Below, piece after piece: positions 3,916 through 53,610 of a stretch of DNA of 64,000 nucleotides. The notes beneath the pieces were generated by a model that did not search any database, was not told the DNA's origin, and was given only the letters and a program-made list of their open reading frames with translations. Both the position numbers and the translations under genes were made by a program. The DNA lies in contig OX424564.1 in assembly GCA_949152475.1 (NCBI GenBank), positions 27,898,165-27,962,164 on the forward strand, read 5' to 3'. Source of the DNA: Terebella lapidaria (taxonomy: Eukaryota > Annelida > Polychaeta > Terebellida > Terebellidae). Numbering within the stretch: position 1 is the stretch's first letter; every line of letters begins with the position of its first letter.

Positions 3916-4975
3916 AGGCCAAAGGGCTAAGAAAGGTTACCGGAAAAATGTTTATTTTTCAAAAAACTTTTTTTCATCAAAATTGTTGTATTGATCTTGA
4001 AATGTTGAATCTTGAATCTTGAAAGTTCAAATTCAAGGTCATAACAATACTCACCATATATCATTTCATTTGTACACAGTTGATTCTTAAGCCATAAAGT
4101 TGTGTACAAACAAGATATTAGCCATCTAGTGCTCTGACCTTGAAAATAATATCAAAAGTCAAATCCAAGGGTATGAGCATATATTTCGCATATATCATTT
4201 CCTATGTGTTCACAATTGATTCCTAGCTGTGGAGTCAATGATAAGCAAGATAATAACCATTTTGTACTGTGCCCTTGAAAATGAAGTCAAAGAGCAAATT
4301 CAAAATCATAAGAATATTCGGCATATACCATTTCCTATGTGTCCAGTTTTGCCATTTTGTGTTCTGATCTTGAAAATGAGATTGAAGTTTAAGTTCAAGG
4401 TCATCAGAATATTCGGTGTATATCATTTCCTATATGTGCACAAATGATTCCTAATCTGTGAAGTCGATAATATGCGATATATTACCAATTTTGTGCTTTG
4501 ACCTTGAAAGAGGTTAAAGGTCAAATTGAAGGTCACGAGAATATTCAGCAGATGTGATTTCCTATATGTGCACAATTGATTCCTAATTTGTAAAATCGAT
4601 GACAAGCGAGATATTACCCGTTTCGTGCATTGACCTTGAAAATGAAGTGCAAGATAAGCTCAAGGTCATGAGAATATTCTGTATAGCTCATTTCCTAGAT
4701 GTGAACAATTGATTCCTAATCTGTAAAGTCGATAATAAGCGAGATATTAGCCTTTTTGTGCTCTGACCTTGAAAATGAGGTTAAAGGTCAAATTCAAGGT
4801 CATGACCATATTCAGCATGTATCCTTTCCTATAGGTCCACAATTTATTCCTAAGCTGTAAAGTCATAATAAGCGAGATATTAGCCATTTGCGCTTTGACC
4901 TTGAAAATGACTACAGAGGTCAAAATCTAGGTCATCAAAATATACTTAGTAGGTCATCAAAATATATTTAGTATC
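3915..4975. repeat. Degenerate ~133-bp tandem satellite rich in AGGTCA
   Basis: A unit containing 'gctctgaccttgaaaatgag', 'ttcaaggtcat', 'tcatttcctatatgtgcaca' and 'gataataagcgagatatta' recurs. The 'ttgtgctctgacc' phrase starts at about 4,128, 4,261, 4,357, 4,489, 4,620, 4,755 and 4,892. Spacings are near 131-137 bp except one short unit of 96 bp. A lone diverged relative lies at about 62,150-62,345. The left boundary 'ggccaaagggctaagaaaggttacc' resembles the start of the repeat at 39,173. Confidence 0.75.
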
Positions 4976-19764: not shown

Positions 19765-19879
19765 TAGGTAAAGTTACTTCCATAGAAATAGAGAAGCTCG
19801 CTCTATTTCTATGGTTACTTCACTCTGGGGTGGATCTGTGGGTCGGGCCATCCACCCCAGAGTGAAGTAACTTTACCTA
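19765..19879. repeat. Palindromic micro-element in the 5' leader, interrupted by a smaller one
   Basis: Ignoring a 41-bp insert, the arms are perfect 30-bp inverted repeats. The left is TAGGTAAAGTTACTTC (19,765-19,780) plus ACTCTGGGGTGGAT (19,822-19,835). The right is their complement at 19,850-19,879, around a 14-nt loop. CACTC flanks it on both sides (19,760-19,764 and 19,880-19,884), which looks like a 5-bp target duplication. It lies between the YY1-like motif and the recombinase ATG, so it would form a strong hairpin in the 5' UTR. Confidence 0.75.
19781..19813. mobile_element. 33-bp palindrome nested in the larger palindrome, 8-bp direct repeats
   Basis: CATAGAAATAGAG and CTCTATTTCTATG are perfect 13-bp inverted arms around a 7-nt centre. 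The segment is flanked by GTTACTTC at 19,773-19,780 and again at 19,814-19,821. Removing the 33 bp plus one GTTACTTC restores the perfect outer 30-bp arm, so this is a secondary insertion with an 8-bp target duplication, hAT-like in signature. Its mobilising source is unknown. Confidence 0.65.
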
Positions 19880-19899
19880 CACTCGTCACAGCCGCGGCA

Positions 19900-21921
19900 A
19901 TGCCTGGATCCACCGACGAGTCTCTAGAGGCCGAGATGGAAGTAGCTACAGGTAATACAGCAGATGATGGAGATGTTGCAGCATTACCTGAGGACGGGGC
20001 CGGGGGCAGTGAGAATGAAGCCCATTCGCAGCAGACTGATCAGTCTGACCTGAGTGAAAGTAAGCTGAACGAGTTGGTGATGCAGGCCAAACCAGAGAAT
20101 ACAAAACGGAACACCAAATGGGGAATGAACCGCTTTCAAGCGTGGCTTGATCGACGACGGATGACATGCGATTTCCATTCTGTGAGTTCAGACGAGCTGT
20201 GCCGTTTACTTCGCAAATTTTATGGTGAAATAAAAGGAGCTGACGGAAAATCATCTCTGAGCCCAAGCTCATTGACAGGGATCCGCGCTGCCATCTTTAG
20301 AACATTGATATCTCCGCCCTACAACAGATCAATGAATATAATCAAAGATCCTGAATTCATTCCAGCGAATGAAATGTTTGCAGCAAAATGCAAGCTCTAC
20401 TTCCAAAAAGGAAATGCACGCCCGAAGCACAAGCCTGCCATCGGTGAAGGAGATATGAAACTACTCACCAAGTACTTCTCTACATGGAACGAGGGTCCTC
20501 AGCGCCTGAATGAGTACGTGTGGTTTTCCCTTTGTTTTTACTTTGGGAGACGAGGGCGTGAGGGGTGGACTGGCCTGTCAAAGAACACATTCACGATCAA
20601 GCAGGATGATGACCAAAAGTCTTATCTTACATTCGCAGTCACAGAACAAACAAAGAACCATCAAGGAGGATCCAAGCAAAGGGATCAGGATTATGCTGAC
20701 CAGCGGATGTATGGGCAGCCACTGGAGGCATATCAATTTCTTCTGAGCAGACTCAACGATAACTTAGACCGCCTCTTCCAGACTCCATTGAAGAATTACC
20801 CTGCAAACTCACTGGGAACATGGTTCAAAAATCAACCATTGGGAAAGGACTCCATCTCCAAGATGATGACCAACATCTCAACGAAAGCTGGACTGTCTCA
20901 AACCTACACTAATCATTCGGTTCGAGTGTCGACAGTAACAACGTTATTCCAGGCAGGAGTGTCAACTGAGAAGATATGCTCGATCACAAAACACAAAAAT
21001 CAATGTAGCCTCACACCATATATCAGTGATATGTCGTGCGAGCAGAAACGGGAGTGTGCCAAAGTTCTCCACAATGCTCTGCCAGTTCAAACGGTTAGTA
21101 CACAGTTATACAGTTATGCAGTCAGTCCACACATGGTCAACAATGTTTATGTGCAATCCATAGGTTCTCAATCCAAAACAATCTGAAAATTGCATGATGT
21201 ATTTGATTGTTGCAGAACCAGCTTTCTGCGATGGACATTGCTGTCGAAAACAACCTAGCATCTGTGCCCGAGCAGCCCGACTGTGTGGTAGTGGCCGAAT
21301 GCCCAGAGGGAGATTTACAGGTACGCTATTACCATATTTCACCACTACCAGTATCAGTACTCGTTCCTGTAATACGGATAATGAAAGGTTCTGTGAAGGT
21401 ATCAGTAATTTCAGAAGTAGCCTTGGGTAACACAACAGAATATTTATGCAAAAGTCTCTCCCCCCCCCCCCCCTTTCTTCCCTCCAGGTCACTGCTGTTG
21501 GTGTAGGCGCCAGGCCCAGTTCCCCGCAGCTTGTCGGAGCTGGCCCATACCTGCCTGTGATGACATCACAACAAAATGCACTTGAGGCATTTAGTTATGC
21601 TGACCAGGTAATTAAATGGGTCCACAGTTAATTCATTTGAACATGTAATGTACAGCATGAAAATCAAGATTTGACTACACCGGTACATTCAGTTCTGTCA
21701 AACGTTATTTTACCCTTTGTCAGTGACACTAAATTTTGCCCTTTTCAAAATCCCTACAGGATGTGGCGGATTGGGAACTCCTCAGCGCTGTCGAGCAGTT
21801 TTCGAGTCAGACTGTCAACACTGATGTCACTTCTACTAACCGTTCCACCCAGTTACGCCAAATCATGCCAAATTGTACTTTCAACAATTGTGTGTTCAGC
21901 TTTGGCCCTGATGGACAGTAA
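19900..21921 (+). CDS. Crypton/DUF3504-type tyrosine recombinase, four exons, intact
   Basis: Exons are 19,900-21,093, 21,216-21,320, 21,488-21,607 and 21,760-21,921. All introns are phase 0 with GT-AG ends, giving 526 residues with no breaks. Residues 1-60 are acidic and Ser/Gln-rich, probably disordered. From about 68 to 200 is a SAM-like core-binding region (NTKWGMNRFQAWL, then KPAIGEGDM). From about 200 to 390 is the catalytic domain with R218 (FGRRGRE), a likely K252, H339-x-x-R342 (NHSVRVS), H365 and nucleophile Y374 (SLTPYISD), a complete tyrosine-recombinase set. The C-terminus ends in NCTFNNCVFSFG, like the tails of related DUF3504 proteins. Such enzymes cut and rejoin DNA through a 3'-phosphotyrosine link. 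Relatives are Crypton transposases and the domesticated KIAA1958/QRICH1/ZMYM lineage. Open, spliced and complete, it could be an active element or a young host gene. The empty site in the duplicate copy favours mobility. Confidence 0.85.
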
Positions 21922-38560: not shown

Positions 38561-39173
38561 AGAACAAATATCGTGGAATAAGTTTCAACACTGTCCGTGA
38601 AAGAGAGTGCTGTTAACAGGGCCAGGTATTCTATTGACCATTTTTATTTGCTTTTCTAATTGATTTAATATGTACATATCCTGCCCCACGTGTGGCAACC
38701 CTTGTTAATGAATACCTAGCCGCCGTGAGCCGTCTTTCAACTCATACTGAAGTAAGGAAAAAACAATGACGGAAAATGTGAGACCCTGCAGCCCCTCATC
38801 TTGAACCTCTTCAACAGAAACAAACATATACACATGGACCCGGGTCATGGTTTCATGAATGATATCACAGGAGCTCAGGATCACAAATCACAGGCATTCA
38901 GCACTACTCTAGTACGGCTATCACCTGAATGAAACGAGTGACGATTGAATTGAAGAGACAAGTAGCCGAGCAGATGACTCACTGGGACAGGCGTCAAGGC
39001 TGACAATGTTACCATCACGTAACGCAGATGTACGCAGCAGTGGTATTGATACACAAGACTGTTTAACTAAATATGTGTGTGTTCATATCAATGTTTGAAA
39101 TATTCATTGTCACTGTACACGGTGGACTTGTTTGTAAACCAAAAGCTGCAGATGAGTACTACTAAAAAAAATT
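38560..39173. other. Non-coding stretch
   Basis: No gene, repeat family or conserved motif is recognised. Confidence 0.3.
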
Positions 39174-39950
39174 AGCCCAAAGGGTAAGATAGGTTACCAG
39201 ACAATTTTGGTTTGGATAATGGAATGTAACAGACCTAGAGATTTATCAATCAAGGTTATCAGTGTGAATATATGACCATGAGATTTACCAATCAAGGTCA
39301 TCCATGTGAACTTCAATGTCACCATTACATGTACGGGTGCGGTATTTGATTTTCTATATGTTCATAATACAAAGATACGTCTGGGTGCAAGTGTATAAGC
39401 TTTATCAGCAAGCATTTCATCTATAGAGGCAAATCCGGGCATTTTTAGACACAGAAATGGCTGTTTTGACCTTTTAAGGTCATCCATTTTTTCAAAGGGT
39501 GAAATTTTTTTCCCCCTGGAAATGGCCCAAAATGGATAGTAATTCGATTTGGGGTGAAAAAATTTTTTTTTCGCCGACTCGTCAAAAATTCCAAATGGCC
39601 GCCACACGCAGACCGGCGATTCAAGGGCAACCAAACTTATACATATCACAGAGGTCCATAAGGGGAATCTTTTGAAACAAAAATTTCAAAACTGTCTGAA
39701 CAGTTTTCGAGAAAAGACAGACAAGGTGCAAATTTGGGCATTTTTCGACCCAAAAATTGCTGTTTTGACCTTTCAAGGTCATCTAAGGTCAAATTCAAGG
39801 TCACCACATAAGTCGCCATATATGACTTCCCATTTGAAAGTGCCAATTTCTAAGCTCTATCTTCAGGCGTTCTATGAGTACAGTTCTGGCAGCTCCTCTA
39901 CGGACGGACGGACGGACGCCGGACACAACGCCATGCCAATAGGTTATCGG
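39173..39950 (+). repeat. X repeat, plus strand (TTAGCCCAAAGGGTAAGAT ... GGACGGACGGACG)
   Basis: It starts 'ttagcccaaagggtaagata' and ends with GGAC repeats followed by 'gccggacacaacgccatgcc'. The inverted counterpart is at 52,700-53,610. Both share the 'ttttttcgccgac'/'aaaatttttcaccctttg' middle and several TCAAGGTCA motifs. GGAC-run ends are common in mollusc repeats. The apparent frames of 60-99 codons are repeat-derived. Confidence 0.65.
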
Positions 39951-47638: not shown

Positions 47639-50600
47639 CAGATGAATTCGCCACTTCAAATTATGGGTATGACGATAAGGAAGACCGGACAGACGTGATG
47701 AACTTGCTGAATATCATCCAACCTGACAAGATTGTTCGCGATGACGATGAGATTAGTGATGTAGTACCAGTTACACCATGAACATCAACCAATGGGGCCA
47801 ATTCATCATGATGATTCGGAGGTCGCCGACTCCAATGATCCAGAACTTCCCGAAACTAGAATACTACGTGATGAGAGTAATGAAAACATCTATATCCGAC
47901 GAGTTTTGAGATCATTCAAACAGAACACGGCCCACAGGAAGAAAAATGATCGAGTGTACAACTCCGTGCATGCGTGCCTTTACTGTGGTCGAATCGTGAG
48001 TCACATACGTTACCACCTCAAGTCCAAACATAACAGACAGTCAACTGTAAGAATTTTTTTTTCCTGTGGCCAAGAAAAGGCCAGAAATGCTTCGTTAAAC
48101 CTGATTCAGGCAGCTGGATACGACAAGCACAACTGCAAAGTCATAGATGCCGGGACGGGAGAATTGCTCCTCGTGAGAAGACTCCCAATTGTACGGTCCA
48201 TGTCCCAAGTGCCGGGAGTGGATGTTGAAGGACACTATCTCTAGGCAACAGCCAAAATGTCAATCTCTTGACATTCTGTCAGGCAGGTTCAAATCTACAG
48301 CATCAACAATGCTAAAAGAAGAAGTACTGACCTCCATGATCAAAGATGAAATCTCGGATATCGCGAAAAATGACCCACTGATCATGATGCTGGGTGAAAG
48401 CTGGCTAAGACGAAACATATCCAACAGAGGGAAAAGGAAAAATTACGCATCAGGACGAATGAGGCTGGCTGCCAAACTGCTTAAGCAACTGAGGGAATCC
48501 AAAGAAAAATCAGAAGATAGATCCTCAAGTAAATCCCCAGAGAGGAAATCGTCATCGATCATCTCCAAAACCGGTGTGGATTCCCCGTCAGCAACAACCT
48601 CCACTGTTTGTTCATCCACTCCCCCGGCTCCGTTGTGGAACTTCCTCAAACCTGAACATTTCGACGACATCGCCAAAGCTGCCCACATGGTGTCACTTCC
48701 TAACATTGATGATGAAGAACTCCGATCACCTTCTAATGCCATCAAGTTGAAGTACGATCTGGTTCGACTTGTGAATGCTAAGTGGGCATTCATAATGAAA
48801 CATCAATTAGCCGCCAGCGAGGCAGAATCATGCAAGAGATTCCTCGAATTGTTGCGTATCGAGTGGTCTGAGAAGGTAACAAGGATCGCCAAAGCTGTGC
48901 TTGAACAACGACAACTCTTTCAGAATGCCAGGGATTTCATACCCGACTCAAGCGACATTCAAAAGCTGGTGACACATTTGAAGAATGATTTGCGTGAAGC
49001 TTTCAAGTCGAAGGATAGAGATAACAGACGATTCGCCACCAGTGCCCAGGCCCGCCTACTCGTCTATAACAAGCGACGAAGCGGTGAAATCGATTCTGTT
49101 CTGTAAGCACAGCCCTGAATAATTCAGTATTGTCTTTCAGTGTTTCGGTGTTCCTGACATTCTGAAATTCTTCATCTGTTCTTTCTGATATTCTTGCATT
49201 TAAATCGTTGTACTATATAAAGGGTGAAGCATTACGCAGCACGTCAAACACAGCTGGAGGATGTTGACCAGAGCCTGGTTGGAGAACTTAACGAGTTGGA
49301 GAGACACCTGTTGAATTTGCAGAAAATTATGACCGTGCGCGGCAAGGTTAGTGACTGATCACGATTCACTAATTATCAGGTTAGTGACTGATTATTAGGT
49401 TATTGATAATTATCAGGTTAGTGACTGATCAATATAACTGTATTAGTGATAATAGATTGATACTTACATCTATTTAGATTGGGATGAAGAGTATTAAAAT
49501 TGCCGATGTTGGAAGATAGATCAACTATATCCATACAAAAATAGAATTCGTGTTGTACTCGATTGACTTCTATCACGTTGGTGGACAATAGTAATGATGA
49601 TGAATATTTTAGAGATATGTCTCCATTATTCTTTTTCAGAGAAGTAGACCAGTTCCAATACTAATCCCAGATGATAGTAATGATGATCTGGCCTACATAG
49701 CTGATCCTGAGGCACGACGCAGTGCAGGTGTTCGTGAAGGAAATAAATATCTATTTGCTACTGCCGGTAAATTTCTCTACGGTTTCTAGTTTTCAGTCAG
49801 TTTAAACAATGACCGAAATGGTGTGACTTTTAACATTTATTTTCTCTACAGTTTCTAGTTTTCAGTCAATTTGAACCATAACCATATTCTTGTGACTTTT
49901 AAAGTTTATTTGAGATCATTGATATATCTTTCACTCTTAGAAATTTAATGTGTACATATCATGGTGTTTTGAGATACTTAACACATATATGAACGGATGT
50001 GTATTGCAGGTGACGGATCACTGAGGAGCTACGAAAGTGTAAAGTTCATCTGTGAAAAAATTGCCCTCAAAGGTCCAGAACGGATAACATATGTGAACTT
50101 AAGGGAATACACAGCTACCTTGTCGCAGGTATGTCAATTTGTAACAGTTGAGCTTGTGATCAAAGCATAACGGCCGTAGATTTTTCTTCTGCTGGATTCA
50201 TCAAGTTTTAATGGCATTTATGTCATTAAGGAATTCTTTTTTTCTCGAGCAATATTTTGTGTTCGGTTGCTCTCACTCCAGCATATGTTTCACAGGTGCT
50301 GGACATGAATCAGCAACAGCTCCAGTGGCTCTGCCGCCACTTGGTTCACACCAAGAGGGTACACATCGACCATTACAAACATATGTCAGGCCTATTAGCG
50401 CGCACGGAAGTTGCCAAGGTCATTCTGATTCAGGACCTGGGATTAACATCAAAGTTTGCTGGTCGCAAACCCAGCGAGATTACCCTACAAGGTATTCATG
50501 TGCTCATATATAAATTGTTTTCTGAAAATATTGACATCAGTAACTACATTGCTTAATTATCTTGGATTTCCAGACTGCAATATCGTGTGCTAAATTTAAG

Positions 50601-51276
50601 ATATCATATATGATATATATATATATATCTCCCTGGCGTCGGAAACATATTGTAACGATCTATCATTGTGCACTCGTGCAATATTGCCTGCCTGAAATCA
50701 TGATCAAGGAAAATCGAGGGACTGACAGCTCCCAAAATCTGTTGCGGTGTGGAAATAGTGATTGGTCAGTATCAATTATCTCAACAAAGCAAAGATGGTT
50801 GTTGGGTACTTGAATGCATATGTTGTGTCTTTACAGACGTGGTGACCAGTACCAACGAAGCCAGTGCGCCTGCCGGTGAGGGTGTTCAGCCGCATGCAGC
50901 TAGCGATGATAGTGGAGACGACGAGACTTCACCAGTTCGTAAAAAACCTAAAACGTCTGAGCGTATGATGTGGACACAAACTGAAATCGACGAATTGCAA
51001 CGCCATTTCAAAGACTATTTAAAAACCAAAACAACACCTTCCAGAAAGGAGTGTCTCCGGGTGATTGGATTGTCACGGGAGAAAGGGGGACAGCTGTGCC
51101 GTAGGACACCACCTTTGATCATCGAGAAGATTTCGAAAATGAACAAAAATGAATGTCTGTTTGCTGTGGCAGCTTATAGTTTAGATCTGCGTCTATGTGT
51201 GATTAAATTCTATGTGAGCCCGCATTGTTCATTTCTGATCTGCTTTGTTAGCGGATTTTTTTCAAAGTATGTATGA
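47639..51276 (+). CDS. Zinc-motif protein with tyrosine-recombinase-like core and SANT-like tail, frame-broken at 5' side
   Basis: Exons: about 47,639-49,102, then 49,223-49,346, 49,640-49,766, 50,010-50,128, 50,296-50,491 and 50,837 to about 51,276. The five introns are GT-AG with matching phases (2, 0, 1, 0, 1). In order the product has an acidic start, CLYCGRIVSHIRYHLKSKH (C2H2-like), a GAGTGELLLVRR-like link (here DAGTGELLLVRRL), CPKCREWMLKDTI (second Cys pair), a helical region, and then recombinase-like boxes: LVYNKRRSGEIDSVL (box I), VNLREYTATLSQ (box II, Arg kept, usual His absent) and LVHTKRVHIDHYKH (box III His with Tyr nine residues on). A final MWTQTEIDELQRHF segment looks Myb/SANT-like. 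I know the layout from an unnamed family in fish and invertebrates, and the recombinase link is my inference. The frame shifts once near 47,762-47,780 and once near 48,185-48,190 (between LPI and YGPCPKC), so it is a recent pseudogene or has sequence errors. Catalysis is doubtful. Confidence 0.65.
49438..49485 (-). repeat. S repeat fragment in intron of the second gene
   Basis: 'Ataatagattgatacttaca' is the complement of the S family start. It lies in the 293-bp intron 49,347-49,639, directly after a short 'ggttagtgactgat' tandem repeat at 49,346-49,430. Confidence 0.5.
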
Positions 51277-52700: not shown

Positions 52701-53610
52701 CGTTGGTCCTTCTAGCCGTCCGTCCGTCCGTTAACATTTTTATCGTTAAAGTTTACGAGCGAATCTTTCTGAAATTTTGCACAAAAATGCCTAAAAATAT
52801 TTTTAGAAGGAGGTATTTTTACGTTTCTTGAGTTCGCAGTCTTTCAAAATGGCGGCCGTTTTGGTCGAAAAACGCTCAATTTTAGACTTTGACGGCCATT
52901 TTCTGAAAAACTGATCAGTTTTGAGTTTTTGGTCTCAAAAGATTCCCCTAATATATCTCTGGTCATTTTGAATTTTTGACCGGTCGGCAAAAAAATTTTT
53001 TTTGCTCCAAATCGCTCAAAAATTTTTCACCCTTTGGAAAAAATTTTGGAGTTGGAAAATTTTCGGCACTCTTTTCCTTCATAATGGGAGCTGTCAGGGC
53101 TGTACTCATAGAATGCTTGAAGATAGAACTTAGAAATTGGAACTTTCAAATGGGAAGTCATATGGCGATTTGTGTGGTGACCTTGAATTTGACCTTCGAT
53201 GACTTTGAAAGGTCAAAACAGACATTTTGGGGTCAAAAAATGCCCAGGTTTGCCTCAATAGATGAAACAGGAAGACATATGGCACAACTAATGATGACCT
53301 TGAACTTGACGTCAGATGACCTTGAGTGCCAAATGTCACAATTTACACGGAATGTGTAAATTGACGTGAGTGGCCTAAACGATCCCACCCAGATATATCT
53401 TTGTATTATGAACATATAGAATATCAAATGCCACACACATACATGTAATGGTGACATCGAAGTTCACATGGATAACCTTGATTGGTAAATCTCAAGGTCA
53501 CATGTCAACACTGCGAACCTTGATTGGTAAATCTCAAGGTTTGTTACCTGCCAATGCTGCCATGGCCAAACCAAAATTGTCCGGTAACATCTTAACTTTG
53601 GGCTAATTTT
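52700..53610 (-). repeat. X repeat, minus strand
   Basis: This is the inverted counterpart of 39,173-39,950. It has 'ccgtccgtccgtccg' at the left and 'catcttaactttgggctaat' at the right. The frame at 52,976-53,359 (127 codons) reads through the repeat and is not a gene. It contains several TGACCTTGA/TCAAGGTCA motifs. Confidence 0.65.

Follow-up and report, generated by a model that had tools for sequence, protein, structure and literature searches.

A decayed tyrosine-recombinase-like gene in the annelid Terebella lapidaria, probably the remnant of a transposase from large (CGTC)n-targeting DNA transposons

By description, the published systems closest to the elements reported here are the nimavirus integrases that insert into telomere repeats, and the Cryptons. 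The parts of the nimavirus study drawn on here describe tyrosine recombinases associated with telomeres or 28S rDNA that carry a C2H2 motif and in which five of seven key residues were found; some of their genes are multi-exon, they insert into microsatellites or rDNA, and they stand apart from Cryptons in the authors' tree (PMC10871703). The same parts mention decapod relatives without a viral tie (PMC10871703). Animal Cryptons (CryptonA and CryptonI) are characterized, in the excerpts of the Crypton study used, as tyrosine-recombinase DNA transposons without terminal inverted repeats; they have no terminal repeats at all and no C-terminal domain, and DUF3504 derives from Cryptons (PMC3212892). 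The gene family analyzed below shares the C2H2 motif and a microsatellite target with the nimaviral recombinases, as far as these are covered in the parts cited, which is a likeness by description and not a statement of kinship. Whereas the nimaviral enzymes are part of large virus genomes, with (TAACC)n or 28S rDNA as the target, the family described here occurs in elements of 19-27 kb with a (CGTC)n target. In the open-licence section of PubMed Central, a scope outside which preprints and Repbase lie, no description of the family apart from nimaviruses was found.

The DNA analyzed (the window) is a stretch of 64,000 nucleotides, C11:27,898,165-27,962,164 of the 762 Mb assembly. Reading frames and splice signals outline a six-exon gene at window positions 47,765-51,276. 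In order, it encodes a C2H2-type motif, a CPxC...C motif, a helical stretch, box I (KRRSGE) and a hairpin lysine (VRGK), followed in the same protein by box II (NLREYTATL), box III (HLVH), a tyrosine nine residues later and a basic tail. The features are:

47,639-47,781, plus strand: candidate N-terminal exon, acidic, in a frame differing from that of the next part; an open reading frame only, located where the preliminary description let the gene start
47,765-48,166, plus strand: first part of exon 1, with the C2H2-type motif (Cys/His codons 47,975-48,031)
48,167-48,194, plus strand: site of a frame change; the copy on C15 is in frame throughout this site
48,177-49,102, plus strand: second part of exon 1, with the CPxC...C motif (48,201-48,260; His lost), a putative core-binding segment and, at its end, box I KRRSGE
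49,223-49,346, plus strand: exon 2, ending in the hairpin lysine motif RGK
49,640-49,766, plus strand: exon 3, an RPVPILIP strand followed by a helix
50,010-50,128, plus strand: exon 4, box II VNLREYTATL (Arg codon 50,102-50,104)
50,296-50,491, plus strand: exon 5, box III HLVH (His 50,347-50,349) and Tyr (50,374-50,376)
50,837-51,276, plus strand: exon 6, whose basic C-terminal segment is conserved as far as about 51,153; the tail beyond is absent from the C15 copy, where the frame stops

In the preliminary description of this DNA, boxes I, II and III were read in phase over the exons and likened to those of tyrosine recombinases. The boxes are indeed in phase, and their motifs recur in the catalytic exons of the C15 copy and eight other members; the frame is not clean at about 48,167-48,194. 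Box I is LVYNKRRSGEIDSVL (49,059-49,103), and box III is RHLVHTKRVHIDHY, with its His codon at 50,347-50,349 and the Tyr codon at 50,374-50,376. The hairpin motif VRGK (Lys codon 49,344-49,346) had been overlooked and strengthens the case for a recombinase. Two Cys/His motifs precede the boxes, as described, namely C2H2 at 47,975-48,031 and CPKC...C at 48,201-48,260, the His of the latter being Gln in the window and His in the C15 copy. The C2H2 motif is found in all three aligned N-termini, and the only Pfam match of the Cys/His motifs is zf-C2H2_4 at 0.025 in one of the three. Donor and acceptor dinucleotides lie at matching alignment positions in 7-9 of nine members, depending on the site. 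The exceptions are group G, where exons 4 and 5 are not separated by an intron, groups E and C, in which one acceptor has moved by a codon, and the C15 copy, which lacks the exon 6 acceptor. A SANT- or Myb-like tail, also proposed earlier, could not be upheld, because the Myb and SANT models of Pfam match none of ten tails at E<=0.1. The tail is nevertheless conserved, with six columns invariant in 10/10 sequences; its best Pfam match is SAB (8.8e-4, in two of ten), and a search of the PDB returned no match below 0.19.

A profile of nine family members (A1), whose rows share 40-47% identity with the C15 row (91% for the window row), contains six residues that are invariant in 9/9: R87, E91, K136, R209, H235 and Y244. 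The predicted catalytic set comprises the hairpin lysine K136, the box II arginine R209, the box III histidine H235 and the tyrosine Y244, the last being nine residues past the histidine, with the same spacing in the XerD alignment. Of the Arg, His and Tyr positions on whose conservation the preliminary description had made its assignment depend, R87, R209, H235 and Y244 are unchanged in 9/9. For the box II histidine and the tyrosine, which were to be followed through the copies, the outcome is split: the tyrosine is kept in 9/9, while the histidine is absent from 9/9, its position three residues before R209 being occupied by Val in eight members and Thr in one. In the tyrosine recombinase superfamily this position varies, and the missing histidine is therefore compatible with activity, which is itself predicted from the sequences. 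In box I, R87 is present in 9/9 and R88 in 8/9 members (Met in group C). The R-x-x-E spacing of Xer box I fits R88, and either R87 or R88 may be the catalytic arginine.

Aligned with a profile of 80 XerD sequences in hhalign, A1 scored 35.3 (P 3.7e-4, probability 36%), with the Lys motif, box II Arg, LGH and Tyr in register and box I lying beyond the match. Among 200 column shuffles of A1 none reached this score (mean 16.2, SD 3.0, maximum 27.4), and reversed A1 scored 18.8. Thus, the likeness to tyrosine recombinases exceeds chance. Unlike XerD, the family has Val or Thr in place of the box II histidine and possesses additional Cys/His motifs, a tail and introns. Searches with individual sequences gave fainter signals. 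Phage_integrase was matched at 1.7e-4 by one of nine members (group C, residues 124-243), below the curated cut-off, and phrog_216, an integrase family, by two of nine, at best with 3.8e-6 (group G, stopping before the Tyr). Unrelated Pfam families score as well in other members, for example P4Ha_N at 2.1e-4 in group E; the single exons of the window gene have no integrase match in Pfam, and the A1 profile found no recombinase and nothing significant in the PDB (best 0.26, unrelated). Taken as a whole, the profile and residue comparisons indicate that the window gene and its family are homologous to tyrosine recombinases. This agrees with the earlier view of a large uncharacterized family with two Cys/His motifs.

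The window contains a second predicted recombinase gene, which appears Crypton-like. It is an intronless frame of 464 aa at 19,792-21,183 (plus strand) with matches to DUF3504 (1.6e-6) and Phage_integrase (1.2e-5), neither of which quite reaches the Pfam cut-off. The two genes had been called unrelated, and beyond membership in the same superfamily this holds: A1 and the DUF3504 gene, the latter entered as a single sequence, gave an hhalign probability of 0.1%.

The closest relative of the window gene is the C15 copy, with 90-95% identity in the gene including introns. In the window copy, the frame changes at about 48,167-48,194 (not so in C15), the His of the second Cys/His motif has become Gln, the residue after the box II Arg is Glu instead of Lys, and the residue before the box III His is Val instead of Gly (GH to VH). 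The C15 copy is damaged elsewhere: its frame is broken ahead of the C2H2 motif, and a stop falls inside that motif. A comparison of the two copies across 561 codons gives dN 0.035, dS 0.113 and dN/dS 0.31, which suggests that the gene was under constraint before both copies decayed; between groups E and C, synonymous sites are saturated. Judging by the frameshift, the lost zinc-motif His and the change from GH to VH, the window copy is probably dead, although its element retains a right end. At 4,022-4,943, the window also contains tandemly repeated DNA that resembles, in reverse orientation, a stretch beside the C15 copy.

With exon 5 of the C15 copy as query, 106 candidates were scored genome-wide, yielding 103 places at E<=1 and 89 at E<=0.001. 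Among the best 30 of the 103 loci, 26 pair with another locus over more than 400 bases and form multi-copy groups; identity is 90-93% for the window/C15 pair and mostly 97-99.9% for the other 24. These best 30 loci include four copies of group A, eight of B, two of C, two of D, four of E, two of F and two of G. The two C copies, whose left flank is common to both, may represent a single locus that was duplicated in the assembly. Such a distribution bears on the preliminary proposal of a "domesticated or unclassified recombinase system". Domestication as a host gene family, with segmental duplication as the means of expansion, would account for the introns, which are typical of host genes, for the purifying selection (dN/dS 0.31) and for the identity of 81-95% that the window and C15 copies share in introns and flanks. 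It would not account for copies that are nearly identical, lie on separate contigs and combine precise ends with dissimilar flanks, for the existence of empty sites, or for the decay of both the window and the C15 copies, and we regard domestication as highly improbable. The "unclassified" part of the proposal fares better, given the element ends and the target described below.

Comparison of the ends suggests that the family genes reside in discrete mobile elements, which had not been recognized in this DNA before. Two E copies (on C1 and C4), compared over 28.7 kb each, match at 99.8-99.9% with one internal length difference, and the match breaks off abruptly on both sides. The element so delimited begins with CGTCCTCACGAATG and ends with CGTTGGTACGTCCGT, with CGTCC at both ends and TAGTCCCACAA tandem repeats close to the right end; a self-comparison of one E copy revealed no terminal inverted repeats. 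The 120 bp at either end are 100% identical in 4/4 E copies and 86-89% identical in group C. The two ends were recovered together in E and C only, giving lengths of 19,075, 19,072, 19,099 and 20,546 bases for the E elements and 27,308 bases for the group C copy. The left end of C is CGTTCTCACG, not CGTCCTCACG. Family B has a right end of the same type as E, and its end DNA matches 8/8 B copies and part of one D copy; its left end was not reached within 9 kb upstream, and that of D was not found. The right-end motif TTYGTTGGTNCGTCCG occurs at 15 places in the genome (one in the backward control). At 13 of these it lies 2,435-9,127 bases downstream of a family exon 5 on the same strand, as computed with 28 of the 103 places, and an inspection by eye against all 103 places found no family gene near the other two. 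At the copy junctions of families F and G no CGTC end was seen. Group A was considered as a short form of the element and rejected: its four copies contain family gene pieces out of order and partly inverted, 99% identical between copies (L142:186-7915, L143:2382-8443), and have other ends, without CGTCC. It was probably moved by another system.

In the window, the right end of the element and an uninterrupted version of the target repeat are both present:

52,702-52,730, plus strand: right end of the window element, GTTGGTCC; at 52,717 the (CGTC)n array of the target repeat begins
39,903-39,945, minus strand: uninterrupted target repeat, a CGTC array adjoining AACCTATTGGCATGGCGTTG; an empty site outside the element

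The left end of the window element was not found within the window, where the single copy of the left half of the target is the empty site. Positions 52,717-53,610 and 39,166-39,918 hold oppositely oriented copies of one dispersed repeat, which contains a (CGTC)n array. As far as the junctions indicate, this dispersed repeat is the target of the elements. CGTCCG follows the right-end motif within 9 nt at all 16 right ends examined from five families (eight B, four E, one C, one D, the window and C15), and tandem CGTCCGTC, that is two or more repeat units, at 13 of the 16. The chance levels by place, taken from window positions, are 0.17% for CGTCCG and 0.04% for CGTCCGTC. On the left, CGTC arrays precede three of four E copies, and ACATT precedes the fourth. 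The joined flanks of this fourth insertion match C1:65,494,080-65,494,296 without a break at 87% identity, the empty paralog reading CGT where the joined flanks read CGTCCGT. For another E insertion, with 40 of 352 candidates scored, the joined flanks match many unbroken repeats at up to 98%.

We consider it probable that the window gene once encoded the transposase of a DNA transposon with introns, a (CGTC)n target and a tyrosine recombinase as its driving enzyme, and that this copy has since decayed. The element would be one of several related families in the genome, measuring 19-27 kb where both ends were found. The XerD homology and register, the invariant catalytic residues, the dispersed near-identical copies, the precise ends and the single type of target all point in this direction. 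The combination of a CGTC-type core at both ends, one target type and a recombinase-like gene, with no inverted repeats present, suggests that an excised circle recombines with (CGTC)n in the manner of an integrase. In this model the Cys/His motifs and the basic C-terminal segment would direct the recombinase, which would cut the element out as a circle; the junction of the two ends would contain a short core of CGTC type, perhaps 3 to 7 nt long. Such a junction would connect GTTGGT[A/C]CGTC to CCTCACGAATG. Strand exchange between this core and a (CGTC)n microsatellite would then integrate the element, leaving CGTC-type sequence at both junctions.

Alternatively, the recombinase might be a passenger in elements moved by another enzyme, either a DDE transposase or the reverse transcriptase of family E, and CGTCC might be an ordinary target-site duplication. 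In a microsatellite target a short duplication is indistinguishable from a recombination core, so that in CGTC-rich surroundings both would look alike. Moreover, family E encodes on the opposite strand a pair of RT and GIY-YIG reading frames with Penelope-like resemblance (L042:829-2699, L045:757-1725; Pfam matches below the cut-off). The E piece containing the RT has at least eight matches (150 of 1626 candidates scored), of which four are identical and all in E, and four are diverged and located elsewhere. Since relatives of the RT thus exist outside the elements, the RT is probably a nested Penelope-like insertion that has spread with E. When the E reading frames of at least 110 aa were compared by tblastn with one B copy (9 kb upstream and the 3' part), the recombinase exons alone matched. 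Furthermore, end motif and target are common to B, C, D and E, all of which have the recombinase, and E is without terminal inverted repeats. A passenger role thus seems unlikely to us.

A further alternative is that the elements are pieces or relics of a large endogenous DNA virus with an integrase of this family, comparable to endogenous nimaviruses. The nimaviral recombinases are reported, in the parts of the study cited, to combine C2H2 and SAM-like motifs, to be partly multi-exon and to insert into microsatellites (PMC10871703). The 19-kb E element, by contrast, showed on inspection no viral-looking frame of at least 110 aa (the Pfam searches covered the recombinase, RT, GIY-YIG and DUF3504 frames), and two scans of viral contigs for the family, with 27 and 99 pattern stretches, recovered no relatives. 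A viral origin of the elements is therefore very doubtful.

For the elements as probable recombinase-driven transposons, comparison with described classes yields a mixed picture. With Cryptons, as portrayed in the excerpts cited above, the family shares the character of a tyrosine-recombinase DNA transposon lacking terminal inverted repeats. Unlike Cryptons, none of nine members matches DUF3504 (PF12012) at E<=1, and A1 gave no alignment with the DUF3504 gene of the window. Fungal Starships are large cargo elements with a tyrosine recombinase, short direct repeats at their ends and a DUF3435 domain in the Captain. The elements described here are smaller, their host is not a fungus, and Pfam scans of the members gave no DUF3435 match. 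They also differ from DDE cut-and-paste transposons, as judged by the absence of terminal inverted repeats in one copy of family E. Helitrons have a CTRR 3' end and an A/T target, whereas the E right end is TTGGTACGTCC in (CGTC)n.

Whether the families represent a separate superfamily of animal tyrosine-recombinase transposons, distinct from Cryptons, DIRS and Starships, appears evenly balanced. Its members would have introns, Cys/His motifs in pairs and long stretches of non-coding DNA, and would insert like an integrase into a single microsatellite; for Cryptons the comparison consists of Pfam and one DUF3504 gene. This superfamily may also have been the source of the nimavirus integrases, and the short tandem repeats recognized may differ from branch to branch. 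Elements of this kind would explain a class of predicted multi-exon genes with zinc motifs as transposases, and would provide a possible cellular source of the nimaviral integrases. Animal genomes contain few site-specific integrases, and elements whose ends are defined and whose only target is one short repeat would offer a testable system in which to ask which part of the protein reads CGTC and how a recombinase functions without the box II histidine.

Two minor observations concern the ends and the protein of these elements. The left-end pattern CGTYCTCACGAATG occurs at 18 places in the genome, 12 of them away from known elements, and these 12 might mark the left ends of additional or solitary elements. 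The protein of family E starts with PEHGT/PEQGT pentapeptide repeats, whose length is unequal in the C1 and C4 copies (L043:4100-5629).
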